Shown here: positions 31,935-41,843 of the stretch, piece after piece
How positions within the stretch are numbered: the stretch's first letter is position 1
How the letters are laid out: each line of letters starts with the position of its first letter
Virus record (IMG/VR): IMGVR_UViG_3300027896_000089
Coordinates: 1 to 41,843 of that record
DNA: 41,843 bases
Source of the DNA: a virus
Direction: 5' to 3' (one strand)
Made by a program: the position numbers and the translations under genes
The notes under the pieces: generated by a model
The model's input: only the letters and a program-made list of their open reading frames with translations
Told to the model about the DNA's origin: nothing
Databases searched by the model: none

Positions 31935-32031
31935 ATTTGAATTGAGATACATAAAGATTCTATTGGGGTTGCTAACGGAAATAGAAAAGTTAAGTTATTG
32001 ATTTATAACAATTTATATTTAAAATATTGCT

Positions 32032-32076
32032 CTTTTAATGCGATGGTCGCGCGTTCGAATCGCGCACGACCCACCA
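32032..32076 (+). other. attP core: 3' half of a tRNA-Lys gene
   Basis: The sequence from CTTTTAATGCGATGGTCGC through the T-arm TTCGAATC and CGACCCACCA is the anticodon-loop-to-CCA part of a tRNA-Lys(UUU). The 5' half is absent, so it is not a working tRNA. On integration it would restore the interrupted host tRNA-Lys. The integrase gene is adjacent. Confidence 0.88.
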
Positions 32077-32095
32077 CAAAGACTGAATAAAAAAC

Positions 32096-39835: not shown

Positions 39836-40063
39836 CTAACCGGAACCGTAACCGGAACCGGAACCGTAACCGGAACCGTCACCGGAACCGTCACCGGAAC
39901 CGTCACCGTAATCGTAACCGGAACCGTCACCGTCACCGTCACCGTCACCGTCACCGTAACCGGAACCGTCACCGTCACCGTAACCGTAATCGTCACAGGA
40001 ACCGTCACCGTAATCGTCACCGTAACCGGAACCGTCACCGGAACCGATAGTTACGCTTTCCAT
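39836..40063 (-). CDS. Glycine-alternating (GS/GY/GD) low-complexity protein
   Basis: This 75-residue protein starts with MESVTIGSGDGSGYG and continues as Gly alternating with Ser, Tyr and Asp to the end (GSGYGSG). Its ATG lies 13 bases inside the upstream gene, in a different frame, so it could be translated by coupling. Similar Gly-Ser-Tyr repeat proteins exist in phages next to this upstream gene family. Function is unknown; a phase-separating or filamentous property is conceivable. Other frames are also open because the DNA is a hexamer repeat, so the protein is less certain than its upstream neighbour. Confidence 0.6.
   Translation of the reverse strand: MESVTIGSGDGSGYGDDYGDGSCDDYGYGDGDGSGYGDGDGDGDGDGSGYDYGDGSGDGSGDGSGYGSGSGYGSG
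39841..40044. repeat. Array of 34 hexamers (CGNNAC-type)
   Basis: The segment is 34 consecutive hexamers with no indel: CGGAAC, CGTAAC, CGTCAC, three CGTAAT and one AGGAAC. Read on the minus strand in the frame above they encode Gly-Ser, Gly-Tyr, Gly-Asp, Asp-Tyr and Cys variants. The array stays perfectly in phase and ends within the 3' overlap of the upstream gene. Confidence 0.95.
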
Positions 40064-40495: not shown

Positions 40496-40583
40496 TAGCT
40501 AATAGCGAATTTTTTAAACAAAATAACACCTAACCCACAAGTGATTGATTAATTTAGGGATTTATTTTTCGATAGGCGTAAAA

Positions 40584-40604
40584 AAACCGCAGTTAAGCGG
40601 TTTG
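40584..40604 (-). terminator. Rho-independent terminator after the Panacea pair
   Basis: AAACCGC and GCGGTTT form a seven-base stem with a six-base loop, followed on the minus strand by a T run. It terminates the toxin-antitoxin operon. Confidence 0.8.
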
Positions 40605-40624: not shown

Positions 40625-41038
40625 TTAGTGTTTGTAAGCGCTGAAATTATGATCGAACCACAAAACATAAAATATATTATGCACTCTGTAGCCAATCATT
40701 GGCTTTTTACCATGAAATCTAAAGACTAGAAAATCTGAAAGGTCATCTTTTACAAAGGCAGGAATGGGAGGATTTATAGACTTACGAGTTATTTTCTCTG
40801 TGCCTAAGCCATGTCTTGGTAAGTTTTTTATATCCGACCATAGCAAAGATTTTCTCTTAAATATTGATTCAGAAAATTGAGCTTTATGCTCTTGGTCTAG
40901 CGATGAAAAGCAATAAGATCCTAGCTGAACTCGCTCAAGAGAGAATATAACTGGAAGATCGTCATAATTAATGGCGTTGGTAGGGCTTATATTGTGCTTG
41001 CTCTTAAAGCCACTCTTAGCCTTTATCTTCCCGCTCAT
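40625..41038 (-). CDS. Putative toxin paired with a Panacea antitoxin
   Basis: This 137-residue basic protein starts one base into the stop of the upstream gene (TAATG). It has LPVIFSLERVQLGSYCFSSL and a C-terminal FLVFRFHGKKPMIGYRVHNI, FYVLWFDHNFSAYKH segment. The order antitoxin then toxin, the coupling and an own terminator match Panacea (PanA/PanT) modules. The C-terminal pattern resembles small toxin/nuclease families, but no catalytic residue is certain. Confidence 0.6.
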   Translation of the reverse strand: MSGKIKAKSGFKSKHNISPTNAINYDDLPVIFSLERVQLGSYCFSSLDQEHKAQFSESIFKRKSLLWSDIKNLPRHGLGTEKITRKSINPPIPAFVKDDLSDFLVFRFHGKKPMIGYRVHNIFYVLWFDHNFSAYKH

Positions 41039-41484
41039 TATTTAAGCTGAGTTTTATAAAATTCCATCATTGAGTTCTTATCAATCACTCCGGCATAAGC
41101 CTCTTTACTTAGCCAGGGCGCTTCACTATGCGTCATATTTCTCAATTTCCATGCACTATACTGACCAAACACGTCATTTATTTCATTTAATAACTCTAAT
41201 TGATCTGGGTTAAATAGCTCTGGATTAAAGTCAGACGTTAGTGGAATTGGTGATGATTTATAGTACTTATATTTATGATAGATCTCAGGACATACTGGGC
41301 CATGAGTCCACGCCTCAAAATCCTCGTCAAAAAAAGGTAGCTCATAAATAGCTAAATGAAAGGCTTGGGCATAATAGATTAATTTCTGTAATTTCAAGTT
41401 AGAAATATCAGAGTCGTCCCTATCATTGGTATCTGATAAGAAGTAATTAACTATGTGCTGTATGCCTATCATCTTAATCTCCAT
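41038..41484 (-). CDS. Panacea-domain (SocA/GepA-like, DUF4065) antitoxin
   Basis: The 148-residue protein has the DUF4065/Panacea signature: NLKLQKLIYYAQAFHLAIYE, DEDFEAWTHGPVCPEIYHKY, and a DVFGQYSAWKLRNMTHSEAP segment. These proteins act as antitoxins to varied toxins (PanA) or as proteolysis adaptors such as SocA. It is the first gene of a bicistronic unit with an inverted repeat upstream. Confidence 0.88.
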   Translation of the reverse strand: MEIKMIGIQHIVNYFLSDTNDRDDSDISNLKLQKLIYYAQAFHLAIYELPFFDEDFEAWTHGPVCPEIYHKYKYYKSSPIPLTSDFNPELFNPDQLELLNEINDVFGQYSAWKLRNMTHSEAPWLSKEAYAGVIDKNSMMEFYKTQLK

Positions 41485-41491
41485 AACTACG

Positions 41492-41504
41492 GCTGTTAAT
41501 CAGC
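41492..41504. promoter_or_regulatory. Inverted repeat upstream of the Panacea gene
   Basis: GCTG-TTAAT-CAGC lies eight bases before the antitoxin ATG. AACTACGG occurs at 41485-41492 and 41536-41543 around it. It could be an autoregulatory operator. Confidence 0.4.
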
Positions 41505-41545
41505 TCTTATATATCTAGTATAACCTAATCATATCAACTACGGAA

Positions 41546-41827: not shown

Positions 41828-41843
41828 CCCCCCCCCCCCCCCC
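41827..41843. repeat. Poly-C run at the contig end
   Basis: Seventeen Cs end the window, and five Cs begin it. A poly-C run at a contig edge is typical of read or assembly artefacts and probably does not reflect the true sequence length. Confidence 0.9.

Follow-up and report, generated by a model that had tools for sequence, protein, structure and literature searches.

Panacea-containing toxin-antitoxin (PanAT) systems are already known (Kurata 2022, PMC8832971; Ernits 2023, PMC10440598), and some of them include the RelE-related toxin MqsR. Both papers describe lone Panacea domains that neutralise toxins directly, and the validated PanA proteins in the survey of PMC8832971 bind and block their toxins directly. 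The same survey reports antitoxin-first as the commoner gene order, finds that 8 of 25 predicted PanTs showed no toxicity in E. coli, contains 41 toxin clusters with members that have no recognised domain, and notes that SocA carries a Panacea domain (PMC8832971). For proteins of the RelE/ParE fold, RNA cleavage and gyrase inhibition are described as both possible (PMC10440598). We examined a Panacea gene and its small partner in a viral genome, and conclude that they are very likely a real toxin-antitoxin unit of the known PanAT kind, with a toxin family that is apparently not yet characterised.

The gene pair and its genomic setting

The window, i.e. the whole 41,843-nt stretch of DNA that we analysed, is a virus record with terminase, head-tail adaptor, head and tail genes. 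It also encodes a RecE/RecT/SSB block and a tyrosine integrase; close to this integrase, at about 32010-32078, lies a tRNA 3' half that ends in CCA. A tRNA 3' end adjoining an integrase is the usual look of an attP site, and this fragment is likely the attP core. Based on the virion genes, the recombination block, and the integrase near the tRNA 3' half, we read the window as most likely a temperate podovirus. No near relative of its first 25 kb was found in the phage collection.

PanA-PanT is located in a leftward-transcribed region and adjoins a DUF6948 gene. Right after the DUF6948 gene, at 39837-40046, a TAACCG-like unit of 6 bases is repeated 35 times (77% matches), and more than one reading frame is open through this tract. 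A run of C closes the record (41830-41843); it probably arose at the end of the contig as an artefact of assembly or sequencing.

The initial annotation, made from the sequence without database searches, had proposed a phage-encoded Panacea pair with a TAATG junction. Both open reading frames lie where it placed them, on the minus strand, and the junction is present (Table 1). The overlap is predicted to couple the translation of PanA and PanT. The probable start of PanA is an internal ATG at 41472, with GGAG six bases 5' of it, giving a protein of 144 aa; in the alignment, this ATG lines up with the first Met of the relatives.

Table 1. Coordinates of the PanA-PanT features in the window and of two relatives with damaged PanA
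Feature	Position	Strand	Description
PanA, stand-alone Panacea (DUF4065/SocA-like) antitoxin	41484..41038	minus	148 codons; PF13274 match
PanT, predicted RelE-fold toxin	41038..40625	minus	137 codons; phrog_8366 match and AF2 model
TAATG stop/start overlap, PanA/PanT	41036..41040	minus	one shared base: PanA stop TAA, PanT ATG
Intrinsic terminator	40603..40580	minus	AAACCGC-TTAACT-GCGGTTT, then T-run; inverted repeat I4
Damaged PanA beside intact PanT (CF34a, phiv205-1)	L003:3300-3970 and L004:3503-3890

Two flanking signals had been proposed as well, and they fared differently. The pair does have its own terminator, about 22 nt 3' of the PanT stop, with a 7-bp stem, a 6-nt loop, and a T-run; its RNA fold (-9.9 kcal/mol) is far better than those of shuffled sequences (z -4.1), and in phage Emek a terminator is annotated at the matching place behind the pair. 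The upstream inverted repeat, GGCTGTTAATCAGCT at 41491-41505, is present in front of PanA but weak, as repeats like it occurred at 2 sites in the scan vs 1.2 expected, not above chance, and the fold of the PanA leader RNA is no more stable than those of shuffled sequences (z -0.45). We rejected this repeat as an autoregulatory operator because it is at chance level and PanA has no extra DNA-binding domain. The promoter scan gave no promoter excess.

The assignment of the first gene to DUF4065/Panacea was confirmed by the Pfam model PF13274, which PanA matches with 80.6 bits, three times the cut-off of 25.7 (E 2.1e-22). PanA also matches phrog_1281 (E 8e-48). Its AF2 model (pLDDT 93) combines helices with two strands, in agreement with the published description of Panacea, and comprises the Panacea core alone, with no extra domain. 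Among solved structures, this model strongly matched just one, chain B of the DarTG complex from M. tuberculosis (7yk3), with Z 7.7 across 128 residues, the runner-up reaching 3.5. The Panacea fold may thus be shared with part of DarTG, a possible link to another antitoxin.

Pairing and distribution across relatives

In order to count pairings, we fetched loci from bacterial genomes and viral contigs with PanT only, because a PanA-seeded search would be biased. The PanT relatives belong to bacterial genomes of many phyla, plus phages. A Panacea gene lies directly upstream on the same strand for 93 of 106 distinct PanT sequences. Of the 92 distinct PanTs that are full-length, 91 are directly preceded by a full-length PanA in the same orientation, the exception being one locus (L107) with its Panacea on the opposite strand. 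These counts reject chance adjacency of the two genes. The distance from PanA stop to PanT start ranges from -35 to +31 nt and is mostly within 10, with an overlap or short gap in nearly all relatives.

Sequence distances of PanA and PanT correlate across 90 non-redundant pairs (r 0.61; the maximum of 2000 permutations was 0.25), which co-adaptation and common descent of the pair explain equally well. On the PanA side, a PanT partner was found in 36 of 43 usable distinct loci and a different small partner in others, as expected of a promiscuous antitoxin. Three loci (L198:3553-3939, L203:1403-1789, and L211:3544-3903) have a member of a related Panacea group directly followed by a different partner of 119-128 aa with no Pfam match; they lie behind a phage repressor gene.

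Broken copies lean towards loss of the toxin, in favour of a toxin-antitoxin pair: five have a broken PanT and an intact PanA vs one that is the reverse, and these numbers are small. The PanA gene is frameshifted in phiv205-1 and 5'-truncated in Pseudomonas phage CF34a, each beside an intact PanT. A potent toxin would not be expected in this state, unless PanT is silent there, what remains of the truncated PanA is enough, or the sequence contains an error.

Two further relatives have unusual architectures. A Holosporales MAG (L071:4821-6047) has the PanT domain as a fusion with a DNA methyltransferase of the N6/N4 type (PF01555, E 5e-43), and PanA precedes this gene by 14 nt. At L048:4442-5294, a PanT-like ORF overlaps a TIR-domain ORF at the latter's end; the locus has an upstream HTH/MqsA-like gene but lacks Panacea, and it may represent a frameshifted TIR-PanT fusion. 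Together, the methyltransferase-fused and TIR-adjacent relatives hint that the PanT domain may also be an effector in other defence systems.

The pair moves between genomic sites, and the genes that flank it differ between phages. In P22-like phages, it is found in the immI (mnt/arc/ant) region, flanked by the genes for DNA injection on one side and the tailspike on the other, and it is also present on a Legionella plasmid. Two versions occur in complete E. coli genomes, in 34/5426 and 48/5426 of them. About 1% of the complete E. coli genomes carry the pair, mostly within prophages, and its PanT is labelled 'hypothetical' or has no annotation at all.

Predicted fold and conserved residues of PanT

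The partner had been described as small, basic, and of no clear family, and this description holds. PanT is a basic protein of 137 aa with nothing above cut-off in Pfam, NCBIfam, PADLOC, or PDB sequence searches, and its one match is phrog_8366 (E 2.5e-33), an uncharacterised phage family that includes PanT's own family and for which no function was found. The Pfam toxin families had no match in the 86 PanT members, and no similarity emerged when the PanT profile was compared with profiles of YoeB, ParE/RelE, and HigB, whose alignments were made from sequences in the relatives' genomes. Because both comparisons were negative, we place PanT in no named family and treat the relationship as one of shared fold only. 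The searches likewise placed it in no known non-toxin family, an assignment that would have spoken against the initial reading.

Two weak similarities fell short of assignment. PanT scores 22.1 bits against the MAG6450 family NF046006, below the curated cut-off of 40, and it resembles the C-terminal part of PADLOC NsnC, with 88/284 positions matched and not over the full length, NsnC being twice as long. These similarities were seen in 73/86 and 79/86 PanT relatives, respectively. Our literature search for MAG6450 and NsnC found no paper giving a function for either.

The AF2 model of PanT, built with 86 aligned relatives, has a pLDDT of 91.3 and the element order strand, helix, helix, strand, three strands. 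This agrees with the RelE/ParE superfamily fold, in which a strand and two helices are followed by a sheet of three to four strands. A Foldseek search of the PDB returned mainly YoeB, RelE, YafQ, HigB, and ParE, at E-values of only about 0.1. In the VIA comparison with the PDB, the first rank was taken by a Thermus RelE (Z 8.3, 2.8 Å, 86 residues), all other matches had Z < 8, and essentially all of the best 50 belonged to the RelE/YoeB/HigB/YafQ/ParE superfamily. The viral structure library gave nothing useful. We base the fold assignment on the uniformity of the match list rather than on any single score, and the structure-based search that had been suggested as a check thus supports a model of PanT as a RelE/YoeB/HigB-fold protein, divergent in sequence.

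Conservation points to a candidate active site. E81 and R107 are present in 86/86 sequences, Y135 and H137 in 85/86, D129 in 83/86, and H76 in 79/86. The invariant polar set E81/R107/Y135/H137 looks catalytic. By eye, the GLGxE81 motif and the C-terminal Y/H of PanT resemble the GxGKPE motif and C-terminal His-Tyr of YoeB, which we offer as a lead.

Interpretation and comparison with known systems

The near-obligate pairing, the correlated divergence, and the RelE/YoeB/HigB fold of the partner support the central proposal of the initial annotation, namely that the phage encodes a Panacea toxin-antitoxin pair whose toxin is divergent. More specifically, we consider it reasonably probable that the pair is type II PanAT cargo of a temperate podovirus, in which a RelE-fold, RNA-cleaving PanT is directly blocked by PanA. 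Several results count against this reading, namely the weak Foldseek E-values, the VIA scores past the first rank, the negative profile-profile comparisons, and the intact PanT beside damaged PanA in phiv205-1 and CF34a, as well as the non-toxic minority of predicted PanTs in the published survey (PMC8832971).

RNases and gyrase inhibitors alike are built on the RelE fold, the point stressed in PMC10440598, so PanT could belong to a PanAT pair and still act like ParE, as an inhibitor of DNA gyrase, or have some other target that is not RNA. ParE and PrpT structures do appear among its fold matches, but the leading VIA matches are mostly RNases (RelE, HigB, and YafQ). The catalytic look of the invariant polar set also argues against this reading, as ParE proteins are not known to have a conserved catalytic set. 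We regard ParE-like action as rather unlikely. Somewhat less likely still is that PanT is no toxin at all, and that the two proteins form a regulator or anti-defence pair using toxin-like folds. The damaged PanA genes beside intact PanT would suit such a role, as would the fusion of a PanT domain to a DNA methyltransferase, but the near-obligate pairing and toxin-superfamily fold fit a toxin better, and the antitoxin-first order agrees with the commoner one of PanAT systems (PMC8832971).

A type VI route like that of SocAB, in which PanA would be an adaptor that delivers PanT to a protease of the host, e.g. ClpXP, appears very unlikely. SocA shares the Panacea domain (PMC8832971), and PanA matches the SocA equivalog model weakly over its N-terminal half; this match, however, scores 67.9 bits against a cut-off of 190, and direct blocking is the rule among the validated PanA proteins of that survey. 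In P22-like relatives, a gene resembling a Clp protease is found close to the pair; beside the pair in the window, we saw no such gene.

Under the preferred reading of an RNA-cleaving toxin blocked by PanA, we infer the toxicity and RNase activity of PanT, its direct binding by PanA, the trigger, and the role of the pair. PanA would be made first from the shared mRNA, with PanT translation coupled to it via TAATG, and would bind PanT directly through its lone Panacea domain. PanT would most likely stop translation by RNA cleavage, using an active cleft that may be formed by E81 and R107 together with the C-terminal D129, Y135, and H137. If PanA were lost, degraded, or signalled to release its partner, e.g. 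by an incoming phage, PanT would halt growth, and this could protect the lysogen population or penalise prophage loss, with superinfection defence and lysogen stability as the candidate roles. A broader idea, which we consider speculative and doubtful, is that temperate phages have recruited unnamed, widespread RelE-fold toxins, blocked by a lone Panacea, as an infection-triggered abortive system.

With respect to the described PanAT systems, the pair in the window has in common a Panacea antitoxin first, a small toxin-like partner behind it, and a mobile distribution over many species, phages, and prophages. We found no description of the PanT family in the main texts of PMC8832971 and PMC10440598; because it is so common, it is probably already present, unnamed, among the survey's 88 toxin clusters. 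What we add to the known systems is the RelE-fold assignment, which gives PanT a testable active site, and the pairing statistics, for a protein left unannotated or 'hypothetical' in public genomes though the pair spans many phyla. PanT is like RelE, YoeB, HigB, and YafQ in predicted fold, size, conserved acidic and basic residues, and Tyr/His C-terminal end, and it is likewise the second gene of a two-gene module. It differs from them in having no detectable sequence similarity and in being partnered by a lone Panacea protein rather than by RelB, YefM, or HigA.

The MqsR-PanA system of Bacillus fungorum (PMC10440598) similarly joins a RelE-type RNase to a Panacea protein. In that system, neutralisation is the task of a separate zinc-binding domain (PMC10440598), whereas the PanA of the window has no extra domain, so that Panacea itself would have to neutralise PanT. 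The pair would thus add a case in which a RelE-type toxin must be blocked by a lone Panacea, and it is relevant to the question of how this small domain neutralises many unrelated toxins.
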